Positions 4,918 through 23,768 of a stretch of 31,383 nt of DNA are shown in pieces (within the stretch, counting starts at the first letter, position 1; every line of letters starts with the position of its first letter). Source of the DNA: a virus. The notes under the pieces are model-generated. The model worked only from the letters and a program-made list of their open reading frames with translations. It made no database searches and was not told the origin of the DNA. Location of the stretch: IMG/VR virus record IMGVR_UViG_3300047480_000555, positions 1-31,383 of that record. One strand, 5' to 3'. Position numbers and translations under genes: made by a program.

Positions 4918-5769
4918 TTAGTGGATTAAACGTAGGAATTCATTTCTTGCTTTTTCATCCTCTTTGAATATCCCGGTCATCTTGCTTGTGGTAGTCCAAG
5001 TATCATGCTTCTTTACTCCTCTCATTGCCATGCATAAGTGCTGTGCTTTCAAAGAAACTGCTACTCCCTTTGGATTAAGTTCATGCATCAAGCGTTCTGC
5101 AATTTGTGTGGTGATACGTTCTTGATTCTGGAAGCGGTTAGCATAGAGGTCAACAGTTCTTGCCAACTTACTTAAGCCCACAATTTTCTTATCTGGTATG
5201 TAAGCCACAGTGGCTGTTCCAAAGAATGGAGCAGTGTGGTGCTCACAAAGGGAATAGAAAGGAATATTGCTCTGTACTATCATCTCGTCTGTTCCTTCCG
5301 AATCGAAAGCAGTGAAGTTGAAATCTTTTGGAGCAAGGAACTCTGTAAGGAATTTGATATACCGCTTTGGTGTTTCCTTCAGTCCTTCCCTTTCTGTATC
5401 CTCTCCAAAGTATTGAAGGATACGTTTGAAGTTATCTTCCACCGGTTCGTCTTTTACTTCCCATGGAAATACAATCCATCCCCAGTCCTCCATTCTGTTA
5501 GTGGGATTGACTATTGCTAAGAATGGCTTTCCGTATTCCTTTGTGTAACGGATAGCAGTACTACCGCTGTCAATAATATCATCCACAATTACATCGGCTT
5601 CTTCTGGGGTATTAACTGGATTGAGCATTGCTGAGATATAACACCCTCCACGTGGAACTCCATAGTACTTCAAATTGGTTCTTCCAAGAATTGTTTCCGC
5701 TTCTACTTTGAGATGATTTGTGAGAACTTTTACCCACTCCCAATCAAGATACACTTTCTGCTTATTCAT
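4918..5769 (-). CDS. folE: Gpt-like phosphoribosyltransferase fused to GTP cyclohydrolase I
   Basis: A 283-residue two-domain protein. Residues 1-105 look like a purine phosphoribosyltransferase: VPRGG at 38-42, the PRPP loop VIVDDIIDSGST at 60-71, and a W..FPWE segment near 95-104 that recalls the end of xanthine-guanine PRTase. Residues 112-283 are GTP cyclohydrolase I with the zinc ligands C175, H178 (in CEHH) and C246 (in HLCMAMRG). FolE converts GTP to 7,8-dihydroneopterin triphosphate, the first step to 7-deazaguanines. The start at 5769 is chosen because ATG overlaps the queE stop (ATGA); a longer frame to 5829 would overlap queE by 64 nt. The fused PRTase could return free guanine to GMP. 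That role is inference. Confidence 0.9.
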   Translation of the reverse strand: MNKQKVYLDWEWVKVLTNHLKVEAETILGRTNLKYYGVPRGGCYISAMLNPVNTPEEADVIVDDIIDSGSTAIRYTKEYGKPFLAIVNPTNRMEDWGWIVFPWEVKDEPVEDNFKRILQYFGEDTEREGLKETPKRYIKFLTEFLAPKDFNFTAFDSEGTDEMIVQSNIPFYSLCEHHTAPFFGTATVAYIPDKKIVGLSKLARTVDLYANRFQNQERITTQIAERLMHELNPKGVAVSLKAQHLCMAMRGVKKHDTWTTTSKMTGIFKEDEKARNEFLRLIH

Positions 5770-6365
5770 AATACGTTCCAGATTTTGTGTTGCTGTATGC
5801 TTAATCTCCAAGCCGGATTCTCCAAGCAAAGTTGAATACAGTGTTGAAGATTATCTCCATCCAGTTCCTTCCCATTGCTGTGAGGAGATAGCCAGAGGTG
5901 TTGAGCAGGAACTTGTGGCTGTGGGATATCTTGTCCTGCATGACGGACGTAACGCAATTCCGTTACACCATCCGGGAAGTTCTTCTTCACTACATGCTCC
6001 GCTACTTTGGGAGACACGCAAATGAAATCAATTCCCTTTGGAGCAGGATGCAAGCCACTTGTTTCCACTGCTTGGTAGTATCCACGATTGCTAAAGAAAG
6101 CAATAATTTCTTCCGTAAGCTGGTCAAGTGGTTCTCCACCGGTCCAAGTTATCTCTTTGCACTTTGGAGCAAACTTGTTCAGCCACTGGATAATGTCCTC
6201 CAATGAATACTCTTTACCGCTTTCAAATTCGGTGTCGCACTTAATACCCATTGAAAAGCATGCGTGCTTTGCTTTACAGCCCTGCAAACGTATAAAAACG
6301 GTTGCTACTCCAGCTCTGGCTCCCTCTCCTTGAAGGGAGTAAAATATTTCACTTACTTTAAGCAT
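5766..6365 (-). CDS. queE: 7-carboxy-7-deazaguanine synthase
   Basis: A 199-residue radical-SAM enzyme. It opens with the family signature EIFYSLQGEG (residues 6-15) and FIRLQGC (24-30), followed by the GGEP motif near residue 76. QueE turns 6-carboxy-tetrahydropterin into CDG. The cluster cysteines appear to be C30, C36 and C43, a C-x5-C-x6-C spacing unlike the common CX3CX2C or CX14CX2C of characterised QueE. The following CDTEFESG segment supports C43 as the last ligand. It overlaps queD by 8 nt upstream and folE by 4 nt downstream, so the three are translationally coupled. No queC is seen anywhere in the genome. Confidence 0.93.
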   Translation of the reverse strand: MLKVSEIFYSLQGEGARAGVATVFIRLQGCKAKHACFSMGIKCDTEFESGKEYSLEDIIQWLNKFAPKCKEITWTGGEPLDQLTEEIIAFFSNRGYYQAVETSGLHPAPKGIDFICVSPKVAEHVVKKNFPDGVTELRYVRHAGQDIPQPQVPAQHLWLSPHSNGKELDGDNLQHCIQLCLENPAWRLSIQQHKIWNVL

Positions 6366-6756
6366 TGTATACTACTGTTGATGATTCTGTTTCTTGCAAC
6401 TCAATCTGGAAGATTGGTAATTGCGTTTCATTTTTTATTCTTGTGAATAACCACACAGCAAGATTCTCTGCTGAGGTTTCAAAGGGGAGCTTCTTAATTG
6501 GTTCATTCGCCAGCTCCAGAATTTCCACAAGTGGGTCTTTCTCATAAATGAGGAACCAATGACAGTGCTCTTTGATAATGGGCTCAACCAACTTATCAAT
6601 GTCGCTGAATAAACAAGTCACTCCACTTTCGTTGATGGTAGTAAATTTGAATTTACAAACTACTCTGTAAGTATGTCCGTGAATACGACCACACTTAACA
6701 CCACCAGCGTGATTGCGGTGAGCACCATAAAAGTGATACTTCTTTTGTATTACCAT
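6358..6756 (-). CDS. queD: 6-carboxy-5,6,7,8-tetrahydropterin synthase
   Basis: A 132-residue T-fold enzyme. The zinc ligands H13, H26 and H28 (in GRIHGHTY) and the catalytic Cys C22 (in VKCG) are all present, as is a C-terminal ETESS segment that fits the conserved substrate-binding Glu. It converts dihydroneopterin triphosphate to 6-carboxy-tetrahydropterin for QueE. The ATG at 6756 is preferred over one at 6852 because the longer form would overlap dpdA by about 80 nt, while 6756 lies 16 nt after the dpdA stop behind an A-rich leader. It overlaps queE by 8 nt. Confidence 0.93.
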   Translation of the reverse strand: MVIQKKYHFYGAHRNHAGGVKCGRIHGHTYRVVCKFKFTTINESGVTCLFSDIDKLVEPIIKEHCHWFLIYEKDPLVEILELANEPIKKLPFETSAENLAVWLFTRIKNETQLPIFQIELQETESSTVVYNA

Positions 6757-6772
6757 TGCTTTGTATTTTTTT

Positions 6773-7681
6773 TTAATCTTGATTCCCAGCGTGAATTGTA
6801 TATTGCTTTTTAAGTAGCTCTCCAGCCAGAGCGTACTTGGAATAGTAATCAATCCGCTTCTCTGTTACCTCTCCCCACTTTGATACAATACGTTCTATGT
6901 CACGCAAGTATCTGGTTTTCAAAGCGTTGATATTGATATTGGAATTCTTTGCTGTATAAGTTTTATTTCCATCGTTGAACTTTAGAACACCGTACCGGTT
7001 TACTTGTTGCCAACTGGTACTGTCAGAGCTGGTACAGAAATTCAAGTTGTGGAGCAATTTAACTTCCGTACAGCCAAGCAAGTGGATATCAATGGAAGGC
7101 TTTTTATTCTTTATGTAGTGAGCAATTTTCTCCGTGTAGTTTTTTTGTCCCATGCTTCTGAGTTCTGGAACAGAGATAGCAATGTAGTCCGAGAATTCTA
7201 TCATACGGTCAAGTCCCTTCTGTCCGTCCTCTTTATGGAACACGTTTATCTGTCTGGTGTTGGGAAGGTCTTTCTTCATGCGCTCCCGGTACTCCCATGC
7301 TTTTTCCACTCCAAGTACTTTTTGACAATCCACCTCCACACAAGTTGATTTGATATCATGTTCCAGAACAAGTTCCACAAGAGCATTATACCAGATTTCA
7401 ATCTCCTTCTCTGTTCTTTGTCCTGCATGCGCTCCGAACATCAAAGTGAATAAGCCAGAGTCCATGATAGAATGATTGCTGGTATTATTCAAGTACTTGA
7501 TTGAATTGGGAGTACATGTTTTCATCTTCAATGCTTTTATGTTCAACTTATGAGCAAGAAAGTAGAATGATGAAAAAAGAGAATACTTAATACCACCACA
7601 AACATGAAGCACCTCTGCAAAGTCCTCATTTTCCAAGCCGGCAAAATGGACTTTGATATTGGATTGATTAGGTACTATCAT
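6773..7681 (-). CDS. dpdA: DNA guanine transglycosylase (7-deazaguanine insertion)
   Basis: A 302-residue TGT-like protein that matches phage DpdA. Features are an N-terminal FAGLEN..VLHVCGG segment (13-30), MDSGLFTLMFG at 73-83 with D74 equivalent to the TGT substrate-binding Asp, a VEVDCQ strand at 115-120, an INVFHKEDG strand at 145-153, an AISVPELR segment near 168-175, and SSDSTSW at 218-224 with D220 as the likely nucleophile. DpdA swaps guanine in DNA for a 7-deazaguanine base. The start overlaps the QueD-like gene by 4 nt. Which DpdA subfamily it belongs to cannot be told by eye, so it is not clear whether all guanines or only some contexts are exchanged. Confidence 0.87.
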   Translation of the reverse strand: MIVPNQSNIKVHFAGLENEDFAEVLHVCGGIKYSLFSSFYFLAHKLNIKALKMKTCTPNSIKYLNNTSNHSIMDSGLFTLMFGAHAGQRTEKEIEIWYNALVELVLEHDIKSTCVEVDCQKVLGVEKAWEYRERMKKDLPNTRQINVFHKEDGQKGLDRMIEFSDYIAISVPELRSMGQKNYTEKIAHYIKNKKPSIDIHLLGCTEVKLLHNLNFCTSSDSTSWQQVNRYGVLKFNDGNKTYTAKNSNININALKTRYLRDIERIVSKWGEVTEKRIDYYSKYALAGELLKKQYTIHAGNQD

Positions 7682-8028
7682 CTTTCAACTCTTGCACCTC
7701 CGGTTTTCTCCTCCCATACTTCACACCAGCGCATCTCTGGTCCTTGGTCCTGCATGATTGCTTTCGCTATCATTTCGCATGACATACCTCCAAAGTGCAA
7801 TACATCACCTACTGGAGTTATCTTTAAGTATTGCCCCTCTAAAAACGATTTCACGTAATGTCTTTCAACAAAGATTTCACGCTCTCTATCCAGTTCATCC
7901 ACCTCATATCCGCAACGGATAGTAAATGTATGCCGGTGCTCATGCTTTAAGAATTGAACTTCCTCTATTGCGTTCTCCCAGCAATGGAAGCCCTCTACAT
8001 CAAACTGGATAATGACTTGTGTCTTCAT
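7678..8028 (-). CDS. QueD-like T-fold protein lacking the catalytic cysteine (candidate CDG decarboxylase)
   Basis: A 116-residue protein with a QueD-like layout. H15 in GFHCWENA, H31 and H33 in KHEHRHTF match the three zinc histidines. SCEMIAKAI (about 83-91) matches the helix after the active site, and CEVWEEKTGGA near the end matches the conserved Glu segment. The residue at the QueD catalytic Cys position is L27, so normal QueD chemistry is unlikely. It overlaps dpdA by 4 nt and the ParB-like gene by 4 nt, so it belongs to the modification operon. As I recall, a phage CDG decarboxylase named DpdL has been predicted, and this protein is a candidate for that activity. The assignment is tentative. 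Confidence 0.7.
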   Translation of the reverse strand: MKTQVIIQFDVEGFHCWENAIEEVQFLKHEHRHTFTIRCGYEVDELDREREIFVERHYVKSFLEGQYLKITPVGDVLHFGGMSCEMIAKAIMQDQGPEMRWCEVWEEKTGGARVER

Positions 8029-8597
8029 TGTTCTGCTTTTATTTGTGTTGCTTTAATTAGCAAATTGAAAACAATATTCTCTCTGCTTCCTCCAATCTTT
8101 GCAAATGCTTCCACAACTTGATTGTACTCCTCCTCAGTATAGTCCAGAGTAATCTTGGTTCCTGCTTCCGCTTTCTCTTTTGCTTCCTCCTCAAAGAAGT
8201 CATCTAAGTTAATGTCATCAGCCTGCTTCCAGATATCCATTCCCCACGCTTCAAGCTGGGTACTGTCCCACTCGTTAGCAATCATTTCCCAATCCCACTC
8301 ACCGAATGACAAATTATCTTTAATAGTGAATTCTTTTTGTTGCTCCTCAGACCAACGTGCAATAATGATAGGAACTTCTTTCAAGCCAGCTTCTTTGCAG
8401 GCTTTCCAGCGCATGTTTCCTCCAAGAATAACGTAATCAGCATTTACAATAATAGGTCTCATTTCAAGCATGTCTGGTAATTCTTGAATTGACTTTACAA
8501 GAGCTTTGTACTTGCCGTCTTTTATTACACGAGGATTGTTTTCGTTTGGTTTGACTTTGTTGATGCCAACGTATTCAATTTTGGAAATTAGTTTCAT
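8025..8597 (-). CDS. ParB/Srx-like nuclease-domain protein
   Basis: A 190-residue protein. Residues 10-95 form a ParB N-terminal-like domain: NENNPRVIKDGKYKALVKSI, a MRPIIVN strand and the GGNMRWKA motif that corresponds to the ParB GERRwrA loop. The C-terminal half is acidic and helical. Phage proteins of this class often sit beside DNA-modifying enzymes. Here it is the first gene of the tightly overlapping run ParB - QueD-like - DpdA. It has no HTH partner like true chromosome ParB. A role in presenting or nicking DNA for modification is speculation. Confidence 0.75.
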   Translation of the reverse strand: MKLISKIEYVGINKVKPNENNPRVIKDGKYKALVKSIQELPDMLEMRPIIVNADYVILGGNMRWKACKEAGLKEVPIIIARWSEEQQKEFTIKDNLSFGEWDWEMIANEWDSTQLEAWGMDIWKQADDINLDDFFEEEAKEKAEAGTKITLDYTEEEYNQVVEAFAKIGGSRENIVFNLLIKATQIKAEQ

Positions 8598-17843: not shown

Positions 17844-18062
17844 ATGTCAGTAAAAAATAAAGCAACACAACTTTACAATGAAGGACTTATCATTGCTAAA
17901 CATTACACATTTCCTCATGCAGAGCATGGACTTGCAAAGGAGATAGCTCTACATTCAATCAAAGTAGCAAAGGAGCATGCTGACAGCAATTTGAAAGGCT
18001 GGCTGGATGCTGATGTACTCGCTTTCTTAGAGTCCGTAGAGCAGGAAATCAAAAGCATGTAA
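17844..18062 (+). CDS. Small helical protein of unknown function
   Basis: A 72-residue helical protein (MSVKNKATQLYNEGLIIAKHY...) of unknown role. Two starts are possible. The ATG at 17844 follows a strong A-rich leader and is preferred. The ATG at 17784 overlaps the previous stop in TAATG and would add 20 residues (MTNFAGPLLWYIEEKQ...) that look less protein-like. It ends in a TAATG overlap with the glycosyltransferase gene, so the two are coupled. Confidence 0.65.
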   Translation: MSVKNKATQLYNEGLIIAKHYTFPHAEHGLAKEIALHSIKVAKEHADSNLKGWLDADVLAFLESVEQEIKSM

Positions 18063-19057
18063 TGACAATTTATCTCGTTCATTTATTTGACCGCTTTAGT
18101 GTTGGTGGTATTGCTTCCTTTACCAATCATCTGTACCTCCAACTTTTAGAATTGGGCTACTCTCCAGTTATTGTAAAGCGGAAAACAGTTGAGCAATTTC
18201 AAAGCAAAGAAGCGTTACCAACACAATACCTCAGCGATGGGGAGATAGTTGAAATTTGCAGGACCTCTCCTTGTTTAATTACGTTCTGCTCATGGGCTGA
18301 AAACCATGATTTGTGTAAGCTACTCATTCGTGGTGGTACTCCCATTGTCATTCATGACCCGGTAGAGTACTACGATGAAATGCTGGAGCTGGCTTTCAAG
18401 TATAGTGAAATCATTGTTATCCGGAGACAGAACTATTTGAATCTCTTGGAGCGTAATATTGTTCCTACCTTCATTCGACATCCATACGTTAGAGCAGGAA
18501 TTCAAACAAAGGAAAAAGCAGGAGCTGTATCTTGCACAAGAATAACTTACAATAAGTGTCCGGAATTGCTATTGAAAGCAAACAAACTCGGGACTAAGAT
18601 TGACATGTATGGGGAATTGAACAACGCTTTCTACTACTACAATCTTCGTGATAATAGTGATTGGAAAAAATACTACAAGGGGAAAATTGAAAATAAGATA
18701 CATGCTGTTCCAAAGGTGCTTTCAAAATACAAGTACGCTGTTGATATGAGCTTTATTGCTCTTGATGGAGGAGGAACGCAATACAGTTTTCTGGAAGCGT
18801 GGGATGCTGGCTGTATGCTTATCGTTCTTGATAAGTGGATAAAGCAAGATGATGACTTAGTGCCGGGAGTAAACTGCTTGACAGCCATGTGTGAGTACGA
18901 ACTCCGGGATGTAATAAATTTTGGAAGCAGTTACGACATTGCTATTCATAGCACCATGCTTGAAAAGCACAATACAGAAAACTCTGGAAGAAAGTTTCTG
19001 GAGCTCATTCTATTTCAACACGAAGTAAGAAAAAGCCGTCACACCGATGGTGATTGA
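18062..19057 (+). CDS. GT-B type glycosyltransferase
   Basis: A 331-residue protein like family-4 GT-B enzymes. An N-terminal Rossmann start with SVGGIASFTNHLYLQLLELGY (residues 13-33) is followed by the donor-binding half with LDGGGTQYSFLEAWDAGC at 234-251, where E245 fits the conserved Glu that holds the nucleotide sugar, then a MLIVLDKW strand. No membrane segment or signal peptide is seen, so it acts in the cytoplasm. The acceptor could be phage DNA, a virion protein or a host glycan. It is last in the rightward unit, and its end overlaps the convergent spanin-like gene by 48 bp. Confidence 0.72.
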   Translation: MTIYLVHLFDRFSVGGIASFTNHLYLQLLELGYSPVIVKRKTVEQFQSKEALPTQYLSDGEIVEICRTSPCLITFCSWAENHDLCKLLIRGGTPIVIHDPVEYYDEMLELAFKYSEIIVIRRQNYLNLLERNIVPTFIRHPYVRAGIQTKEKAGAVSCTRITYNKCPELLLKANKLGTKIDMYGELNNAFYYYNLRDNSDWKKYYKGKIENKIHAVPKVLSKYKYAVDMSFIALDGGGTQYSFLEAWDAGCMLIVLDKWIKQDDDLVPGVNCLTAMCEYELRDVINFGSSYDIAIHSTMLEKHNTENSGRKFLELILFQHEVRKSRHTDGD

Positions 19058-21046: not shown

Positions 21047-23371
21047 TTATTGTAAATCTATTGTCGGTGTGGATGCTTTTGACCATCCCATTTTCAAATC
21101 TTTGAAAGAAACTCCATCTTCAAGAGCTCTTACTGCTGAAATTATTTCATCATTATCAAGTCCGTCATTTGGAAGGAATCTTCCTTTGACTCTTTTGCGC
21201 TTGTATATCTCCCGGACCCAGCGATGATGACAGTTCTTTCCGCCTTTCCACAGCCAGATGGAGTAAGTGTCCTCTCCAGATTTTGCGAATTGATTATTCA
21301 CTCCCCACTCCGACATGTTGTTAATGTCCTCATACCGGTAGCGGAGCCCCTGCTTTGAAGCACTTACCATCTTCTGACAGAATTTTCTACTGTTGTCGCT
21401 TATGTTTTTTGAGTAAGCGTAACGAACTTTGAAAATACCGGAGTCCATTACAGACTTATCTTCTGGATTGGAGAAGGACTTTGTAAACATGGACTCTTTC
21501 TTTCTTAAAGCGCACAAGCGTTCTTCCTTAATTGGATTGATATCCTCCTCGTTTACTAATTCCCATTCACTTTCATCTATCAATTCCCCACAAGAAGCCA
21601 AGTGGTTGAGCCAATTTTCTTCATCCTGCTCCGTCATCTCTGGAATAGCAGATTGATTTTCTTTTTCTCTGTTTACAATTCGCTCTGCCCATCCGAAACC
21701 GGCATCACCTCCCCAGAGTTGCCATGCAATTCTTCCTGCAGTTGGGAAGCCTTCCTCCCCATTGTTCCAGCCGGTTGCTTGTTTATCAACTTCATGTCTG
21801 GAGAAGTAGGAATACATGCGCTTTACGGTATCAAAAGAAAGATTTTTTTTGTTGCTTATGTCCCTTGCTCTTGCTACTCCCACAGCGGTTCCACCTCTAC
21901 CGTATTCTCTGCGCCATTCAAGACCGAGCTCTGCTTCTTTGGACATTTCATCTGTGGGCTCATACCCATCTTCTAAGTTAGTTTTTTTTTTTTCAGCCCC
22001 TTGAAGAACTTGTTCTGGAGCTATCTCTACGCTGGAGAGATTATCAAAGATATCTCCTATCTGCTCCTCTGTTAAGAATGGGAATGATGCTCTGGTGATA
22101 GCTTTTGCACTTGGTATTGTCAATACATTAGCAGTGGTCTGAGTAATAATCTCCAACAAAGAACCAATTTGAGCACCGTTGAGAGCTTGTGTCGCTACTG
22201 CTTGCGGAGTGCTTGTGCTTGTATCTCCTGCTTTGCTGTCAATAGCAACTTCTTCTTCCCACAATGTTTTCTTCTTTATAGTGATATCACTTGGAAGTCC
22301 AAGAGCTTCCATGATAACTCCCATTGCTTCAACAATCATGTCTTGATAAGGCTTGATGACATAGGTATTGAAAATTGCAAGAGCACTTTTCATTTCATCT
22401 TTGTTGCTCCCGAGACCACCAGCTTCTCTAATTCCAAAAAGAAGCGGAGAAGTTACCCGGTGTCCAATCATGATTTGCTTTGTTGCTTCATCACTGAGGT
22501 ATTGGTACTGCTTATCCGCATCTGAAATTGGAAATGTATCAACTCTTGGAGCACGTGATTCATCTTCGTTGAAAGTCATGATAAACTTTCCAGCGTTCTG
22601 AACTCCACTTATCATCTCCTCCCAGTCCTCTTTTATTTTTGCTTTCGCTTCTGAGGATTGGTCACCATTCATAAAGTGTATCATGAACGAAGGGAAAAGT
22701 CCGTTCAAGATATTATTCACATGGTACTCGCTGATATGTCTTGTAAGCTCTACCCAATTCAAACACTGTATGTAGTCTGGCTTTGGATAGTAGCCGGCAC
22801 CACAATTTTCAATGTGGAAGAAAAGTATCTGCTTAGGTTCTTCTTGTGCTTTGTTAATGTCAAAGAAAGGAATGTACTCTGGAGCATTACGCTTCTTGCG
22901 AATATCCTTCCAGTCATTGGAGTACCAAACTCCATTCACTTCTTCATCTGCTGTTTTTGAAAGCCTGCAATTCTCATAAGGTAAATAATTTACCTCACTA
23001 ATTGTAGTTCTGTCAAAAGAGTATATCACTTCCAGATAGCATCCTCCTTGCATCTTCAAGTCGATTGCTATTGGGAACAATATCTTTTCCAGCTTCAATC
23101 TTTCAATGGCTTCTCCTACTGCTTGAATGGAAGTTTCCAAACCATTACCAGCAATCATGAAAGCAATGGAATTTACAAGAGCTCCATGCACCGGACTTTC
23201 CCGGTACAGCTCTATGATGTAATTTGGGTAAGCATTGTTCTCACCGTAATTCACCCAGCCTTTGCGGTCCTCTTTTTCAATAGGTAATACTTTCACGAAT
23301 TCGGAAAGTTTTACTTGAACAGCATTGGACTGTTTTGCTGTGGAGACCAATTTTGTATTTTGATTATCCAT
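21047..23371 (-). CDS. Portal protein with long C-terminal extension
   Basis: A 774-residue protein. The N-terminal half is portal-like (residues 20-370: KEDRKGWVNYGENNAYPNYI, the LLFGIREAGGLGSNKDEM segment near 315). An acidic linker follows (about 380-470), then a separate domain with GGTAVGVARARDISN and GRIAWQLWGGDAGFGWAE (about 495-570). The end (about 650-740) has VMDSGIFKVRYAYS, SRKFCQKMVSAS and DTYSIWLWKGGKNCHHRW. The C-terminal domains resemble conserved head-morphogenesis modules. The start at 23371 (ATG) is preferred to the TTG at 23380 and overlaps the upstream gene by 8 nt. Confidence 0.8.
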   Translation of the reverse strand: MDNQNTKLVSTAKQSNAVQVKLSEFVKVLPIEKEDRKGWVNYGENNAYPNYIIELYRESPVHGALVNSIAFMIAGNGLETSIQAVGEAIERLKLEKILFPIAIDLKMQGGCYLEVIYSFDRTTISEVNYLPYENCRLSKTADEEVNGVWYSNDWKDIRKKRNAPEYIPFFDINKAQEEPKQILFFHIENCGAGYYPKPDYIQCLNWVELTRHISEYHVNNILNGLFPSFMIHFMNGDQSSEAKAKIKEDWEEMISGVQNAGKFIMTFNEDESRAPRVDTFPISDADKQYQYLSDEATKQIMIGHRVTSPLLFGIREAGGLGSNKDEMKSALAIFNTYVIKPYQDMIVEAMGVIMEALGLPSDITIKKKTLWEEEVAIDSKAGDTSTSTPQAVATQALNGAQIGSLLEIITQTTANVLTIPSAKAITRASFPFLTEEQIGDIFDNLSSVEIAPEQVLQGAEKKKTNLEDGYEPTDEMSKEAELGLEWRREYGRGGTAVGVARARDISNKKNLSFDTVKRMYSYFSRHEVDKQATGWNNGEEGFPTAGRIAWQLWGGDAGFGWAERIVNREKENQSAIPEMTEQDEENWLNHLASCGELIDESEWELVNEEDINPIKEERLCALRKKESMFTKSFSNPEDKSVMDSGIFKVRYAYSKNISDNSRKFCQKMVSASKQGLRYRYEDINNMSEWGVNNQFAKSGEDTYSIWLWKGGKNCHHRWVREIYKRKRVKGRFLPNDGLDNDEIISAVRALEDGVSFKDLKMGWSKASTPTIDLQ

Positions 23372-23768
23372 TGTATTCAATATCTGTTGGAATTGGTAAA
23401 GCTGGGTCGGTATAGAACGACTCCTGCTTCACGATGTAAAGATAACCAATTTCATAAACTCCAAGAACGCTTGCATCTTCTGGGTCTAAGTTTGTTGCAC
23501 TGTTTTGTCCGTATACGGTATAGTGCCATCTTCCAGTAGTAAGCACTTCCAAAGAAGCATTGAGTGGGTCATCGAAATTTGTTCCAATTAGCAAATGAGA
23601 AATTCTATCTGTCTCTTCTACTATTAAAGGAATCACAAACAATTCTTTCAAGGTGCTCTGATTAGCAATCTTGATTAAGTAGTTTGAGCATTCACCAAAG
23701 ATAAGAGCCCCTTCCTTTAATGTAAGAAAGAGGCTCTGTACTGGTGTATTTGCTTGTAGGTAAATCAT
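23364..23768 (-). CDS. Bacteroidota phage structural protein (head/tail)
   Basis: A 134-residue beta-rich protein with KELFVIPLIVEETDRIS and an RWHYTVYGQNSATNLDPEDASVLGVYEIG segment. This pattern is common in Bacteroidota phages next to capsid, tail tube and portal genes. It is likely a small virion protein such as a decoration or joining protein. No enzymatic motif is visible. It overlaps the portal start by 8 nt and lies 14 nt after the tail tube candidate. Confidence 0.6.
   Translation of the reverse strand: MIYLQANTPVQSLFLTLKEGALIFGECSNYLIKIANQSTLKELFVIPLIVEETDRISHLLIGTNFDDPLNASLEVLTTGRWHYTVYGQNSATNLDPEDASVLGVYEIGYLYIVKQESFYTDPALPIPTDIEYNG

Follow-up and report, generated by a model that had tools for sequence, protein, structure and literature searches.

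The stretch of DNA analysed, referred to here as the window, was the whole of the 31,383-base virus record IMGVR_UViG_3300047480_000555 of IMG/VR. An exact direct repeat of 122 bp was found at the ends of the record, from which the genome is concluded to be complete at about 31.26 kb. On its minus strand lies an operon transcribed in the order ParB_N protein, P116, DpdA, QueD, QueE and a FolE extended by a further domain at its N terminus, adjacent genes overlapping by 4-8 bp or almost abutting. The overlapping run is headed by the gene for the ParB_N-domain protein (8025-8597; PF02195, E 1.8e-11), which is a conserved neighbour of this kind of operon: it stands immediately upstream in most relatives with the same operon type and likewise in operons that contain QueC. 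It is followed by P116, a 116-residue protein with a predicted QueD-like (PTPS/T-fold) fold (7678-8028; phrog_17812, of unknown function), a DpdA-type guanine transglycosylase of 302 residues (6773-7681), the 6-carboxytetrahydropterin synthase QueD (6358-6756; PF01242, E 3.9e-20) and the radical SAM enzyme QueE, a synthase of 7-carboxy-7-deazaguanine (CDG) (5766-6365; phrog_2076, E 1.4e-23; TIGR04508, E 2.2e-34, a score below the curated cut-off of that family). The last gene encodes a domain resembling xanthine-guanine phosphoribosyltransferase (Gpt; 5455-5769), fused to the N terminus of the GTP cyclohydrolase I domain of FolE (4918-5454; PF01227, E 5.9e-65; TIGR00063, above the curated cut-off). 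For QueD, the ATG at 6756 fits the family better than the TTG at 6852 that starts the longest open reading frame, and for FolE the ATG at 5769 was likewise preferred over the longest frame.

Judged by these profile matches, the family assignments of FolE, QueD and QueE can be regarded as secure. The cysteine motif of QueE, C-x5-C-x6-C (GCKAKHACFSMGIKCDT), is common to its close relatives, and in alignment the phage QueD retains the canonical QueD Cys as well as the Asp/His region. By established chemistry the three enzymes together convert GTP to CDG, and they are encoded in one genome with a predicted DNA guanine transglycosylase. A sequence-only reading of the locus had described FolE, QueD, QueE and DpdA as one tight, overlapping run, which is borne out by the profile matches, the fold of DpdA and the overlaps of 4-8 bp; it had overlooked P116, although 7678-8028 lies inside the region that it covered, as well as the fusion of FolE to a phosphoribosyltransferase domain. 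Its observation that QueC is missing also holds, as a search of the complete genome, bounded by its 122-bp terminal repeat, with the PF06508 profile returned zero matches while the same profile was positive in 12 of 14 control genomes.

DpdA matched phrog_887, annotated as queuine tRNA-ribosyltransferase (E 1.6e-20), and was modelled by AlphaFold (AF2) with a pLDDT of 92. When this model was compared with the PDB using VIA, the best 50 matches listed were all tRNA-guanine transglycosylases (TGTs), with a best Z of 17.7. A profile search of the PDB with DpdA found no relative, so that the kinship with TGT is visible from the fold alone. Residues D74, D118 and D220 are invariant across 26 relatives and were equated with D102, D156 and D280 of Zymomonas mobilis TGT by motif, not by superposition of residues. 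From the phage context and the phrog_887 match, the substrate would be DNA rather than tRNA. In the DpdA tree, the protein of the window falls in a clade of 32 DpdAs, 31 of which come from loci with P116; the exception is a DpdA of the window type that sits in a genome with QueC (L078). Placement among DpdA subfamilies, which had been suggested as a check on the base, was therefore less helpful than hoped: clade and operon type are mostly, not strictly, congruent, and because of L078 the clade was dropped as a predictor and does not fix the base.

P116 matched no Pfam or NCBIfam family, its only PHROG match being the unannotated phrog_17812. AlphaFold modelled it with high confidence (pLDDT 94.4), and the closest folds in the PDB are those of E. 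coli QueD (Foldseek, E 8e-6; VIA, Z 13.0, rmsd 2.2 over 106 residues). A profile of P116 searched against the PDB gave a lone match, weak (E 0.09) and spanning the full length, to the Pyrococcus horikoshii PTPS homologue PH0634. When P116 and the QueD of the same phage were compared directly, profile to profile, hhalign gave no significant match (E 0.019 over 21 columns, probability 2.5%), and the relation between the two is therefore taken from the fold. Across 34 relatives, H15, H31, R32, H33, R48, E51, S83, C84, E85, K89 and E106 are invariant. His15, His31 and His33 correspond to the three-His metal site of the PTPS family, and Glu106, near the C terminus, is what we take to be the Glu that binds and anchors the ring, these roles being assigned from established knowledge of PTPS and QueD. 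The catalytic Cys and the Asp-His pair of QueD have no counterpart in any of the 34 aligned proteins, the Cys being present in the phage's own QueD. P116 thus has the fold and the metal-ligand His pattern in common with E. coli QueD (PDB 4ntk), with about 19% of the structurally aligned residues identical, and differs from it in lacking the catalytic Cys and the Asp-His pair.

Relatives of P116 were gathered from 44 viral-contig loci, named phages and 18 MAG contigs. They occur in about 60 viral records, almost always beside pathway genes, FolE, QueD or QueE being found in the flanks of 36 of 40 viral loci seeded with P116; L042 and L043 are among the few P116 records in which searches for pathway genes came back empty. 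A scan of 85k species genomes for P116 gave matches in MAG contigs only, mostly with a pathway gene nearby. Among named phages, P116 lies inside pathway clusters of Cellulophaga phage phiST, Chryseobacterium phage MA9V-3, Synechococcus phage BUCT-ZZ01 (in which a separate gene is annotated as xanthine-guanine phosphoribosyltransferase), Xanthomonas phage X1, Acidovorax phage ACP17, Rhizobium phage RHph_I1_18, Sinorhizobium phage Phosso and Aeromonas phage Ahp1, and beside FolE or QueE in Vibrio phages Bakedbeans and D479 and Pseudomonas phage Paride; in all of these it is annotated as a hypothetical protein.

Having the QueD fold, P116 might be read as a second or substitute 6-carboxytetrahydropterin synthase. 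This is highly improbable and was rejected, since a true PTPS-family QueD is also encoded in 30 of the 34 P116 records tested, making P116 an addition to QueD and not its replacement, and since all 34 of the P116 proteins aligned lack a counterpart of the catalytic residues.

QueC has the opposite distribution. No full-length QueC was found among the 56 P116 records searched; a sub-threshold match in Xanthomonas phage X1 proved to be an NAD synthase, and a weak one in Vibrio phage D479 a partial PP-loop protein with a QueC-like C-terminal part, encoded far from the cluster. Seeding with QueE only, without reference to P116, yielded 59 loci; P116 was present in 9 of these, and 33 of the 50 records examined for QueC contained it. 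In the table drawn from this seed (53 loci), none had both P116 and QueC, 9 had P116 only, 33 QueC only and 11 neither, so that QueC is present in 0 of 9 loci with P116 vs 33 of 44 without (Fisher p 3.8e-5, a value that overstates independence as the loci are related). A profile search of the QueC records for a hidden P116 found none. The 11 loci with neither gene are mostly truncated fragments; in three intact ones (L082, L098 and L100) the slot after DpdA is occupied by a third type of gene, of roughly 190 codons and SAM-methyltransferase-like. P116 takes the place of QueC and occurs where QueC does not. As the pathway of close relatives contains QueC, P116 or a methyltransferase-like gene, the base may be predictable from genome sequence alone.

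These counts lend support to the core of the sequence-only reading, namely that a path without QueC ends at CDG and that DpdA inserts CDG or a derivative of it: no full QueC was found in the P116 records tested, and close relatives with the same QueE and FolE but without P116 mostly carry QueC. Its further statement, that CDG and not preQ0 is made when QueC is missing, does not hold strictly, as a host QueC could convert phage-made CDG to preQ0. The phage FolE, QueD and QueE might accordingly serve to boost CDG, from which host QueC would make preQ0 for DpdA to insert as such or as a derivative. There is precedent in Salmonella phage 7-11 and other phages that have DpdA without preQ0 genes and are thought to rely on a host precursor (PMC8306585). 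However, host supply does not predict a swap in which close relatives carry a QueC of their own in 33 of 44 loci without P116 and in 0 of 9 with it, and we consider this explanation distinctly unlikely.

Faecalibacterium phage Roos narrows the step at which P116 could act. In this phage P116 is followed directly by a DpdA 43.5% identical to that of the window, and searches for FolE, QueD, QueE and QueC found none of them. If functional, P116 and DpdA must therefore use a precursor made by the host in Roos, from which it follows that the step of P116 should be a late one, at CDG or beyond it, and the two proteins may constitute a minimal pair.

It was with moderate confidence that the operon was interpreted as making and inserting a base of the 7-deazaguanine type without a preQ0 intermediate, P116 decarboxylating CDG and DpdA inserting the product. 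Pathway logic, together with the residues kept and lost, indicates that CDG is most likely the substrate of P116 and that the reaction is probably a decarboxylation. In the proposed sequence of steps, FolE, QueD and QueE would convert GTP to CDG; P116 would bind CDG through the ring-binding Glu and the three-His metal site and remove its carboxyl group to give 7-deazaguanine; and DpdA would exchange guanine in phage DNA for 7-deazaguanine after replication. The DNA base would then most likely be plain 7-deazaguanine (dDG), perhaps with residual dCDG, the alternative being dCDG itself. Whether the base is carboxy- or plain deazaguanine had been left undecided in the sequence-only reading; P116, which it did not consider, points to a base derived from CDG, 7-deazaguanine being the simplest. 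No T-fold decarboxylase came to light that might serve as a template for this chemistry.

The position of P116 directly upstream of dpdA, with an overlap of 4 bp in the window, its pairing with DpdA alone in Roos and its lack of the QueD catalytic Cys would also suit a protein that carries or presents unchanged CDG to DpdA, or that stabilises DpdA, in which case the base inserted would be dCDG. Such a role is possible and, in our estimate, unlikely: even relatives of about 30% identity retain the three metal-ligand His together with a set of invariant Arg, Glu and Lys residues, a pattern suggestive of an active site, and in several relatives, including L021 and L024, P116 is encoded apart from dpdA or is fused to a P-loop kinase-like domain. 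An open reading frame at 18062-19057 that resembles a glycosyltransferase was considered separately as a tailoring enzyme and was dropped when 39 P116 or QueC records yielded no relative of it and the PDB no match.

The N-terminal domain of FolE was assigned from a profile of 27 relatives, which matched XGPRT structures of the E. coli type (E 4.5e-9), and contains the PRPP motif VDDIIDSGST. In the proposed pathway this Gpt-like domain would convert the guanine expelled by DpdA to GMP, from which GTP would in turn be made to feed FolE. The fusion is found in 44 of 46 loci showing both domains, in P116 and QueC types alike, and the Gpt domain is therefore not tied to the base made. At position 89 of the domain, Lys is present in 90% or more of relatives and is presumably the purine-contacting Lys, by analogy with K115 of E. 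coli Gpt; the window has Pro instead of this nearly invariant residue, so its copy is possibly impaired and salvage may be weak in this phage.

CDG and its decarboxylated product have both been linked to phage DNA before: dCDG and dDG are said to have been reported in phages by Cui et al. in 2023 (NAR), who reportedly also predicted a CDG decarboxylase, DpdL. P116 would fit the role of such a decarboxylase, and may be DpdL. Were this so, the window phage would be a new member and would provide stronger genomic support for the DpdL prediction; if not, P116 would represent a new family.

Phage modification with 7-deazaguanines through QueC-containing pathways is known from Escherichia phages 9g and CAjan (Hutinet et al. 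2019, PMC6884629), and such base changes protect phage DNA against bacterial restriction enzymes (PMC6884629). The window phage resembles these in that FolE, QueD and QueE would feed a DpdA transglycosylase for post-replicative base exchange in phage DNA, and differs in having a QueD-like protein instead of QueC or Gat-QueC, a FolE fused to a Gpt-like domain and a short DpdA (302 residues). A likeness is also seen in Cellulophaga phage phiST (NC_020842), which has QueD, QueE, FolE and a P116 homologue and no QueC; its P116 differs in being only about 34% identical over the first 92 residues and in having as neighbours a MazG gene and one of P-loop kinase-like type, and only a motif pointed to the candidate DpdA of this phage (phrog_20335).

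More broadly, and tentatively, with doubt prevailing, P116 could be an unnamed and essentially phage-specific enzyme family that has turned the QueD fold to a new chemistry on CDG, underlying a widespread QueC-free base exchange in phages from 31 kb to jumbo size, with P116 and DpdA as its minimal form (Roos) and a Gpt-FolE fusion recycling guanine. Which gene decides between DNA of the preQ0 type and of the CDG or DG type becomes a directly testable question, with P116 as a concrete candidate for CDG decarboxylation and P116 with DpdA as a minimal two-gene pair for reconstitution in E. coli. P116 is also an unannotated marker in such well-known phages as Paride, PA5oct, ACP17 and phiST.

The window QueE (5766-6365) carries an unusual C-x5-C-x6-C motif (GCKAKHACFSMGIKCDT). 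Very different QueE versions (CNLMCGG...WRCDT) were found in other loci encoding the window's type of P116, the 116-residue QueD-like protein, and of the transglycosylase DpdA, and on this comparison of sequences QueE is judged to have been exchanged while P116 and DpdA were retained. In two related loci, L021 (5995-6810) and L024 (6001-6885), P116 carries a fused P-loop domain (AAA_18, nucleoside-kinase-like) at its C-terminus. Cellulophaga phage phiST and Chryseobacterium phage MA9V-3 encode a similar protein as a separate gene (phrog_19196) directly following P116.

The related genome L078 encodes QueC and a DpdA of the window type and lacks P116, providing a natural test of whether the base is set by DpdA or by the upstream enzyme. 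Relatives that have neither QueC nor P116 carry, between DpdA and QueD, a SAM-methyltransferase-like gene of ~190 residues with a weak match to Methyltransf_23 (L100, 3332-3895; L098, 2268-2966; L082, 6003-6575), which possibly represents a third route, to a methylated base. Two related phage operons (L003, 1494-2000; L100, 3892-4398) contain genes of the Vut_1 family (PF02592), the YhhQ-type preQ0/queuine transporters, and this location within the operons suggests precursor uptake.

Elsewhere in the window, a 331-residue orphan ORF (18062-19057), glycosyltransferase-like by eye, matched nothing in Pfam, PHROGs, NCBIfam or the PDB and had no relatives among 39 related records. The portal protein (21047-23380) is extended at its C-terminus by a region that matches phrog_2859; the ParB_N protein encoded by the first gene of the operon (8025-8597) also matches this family, weakly.
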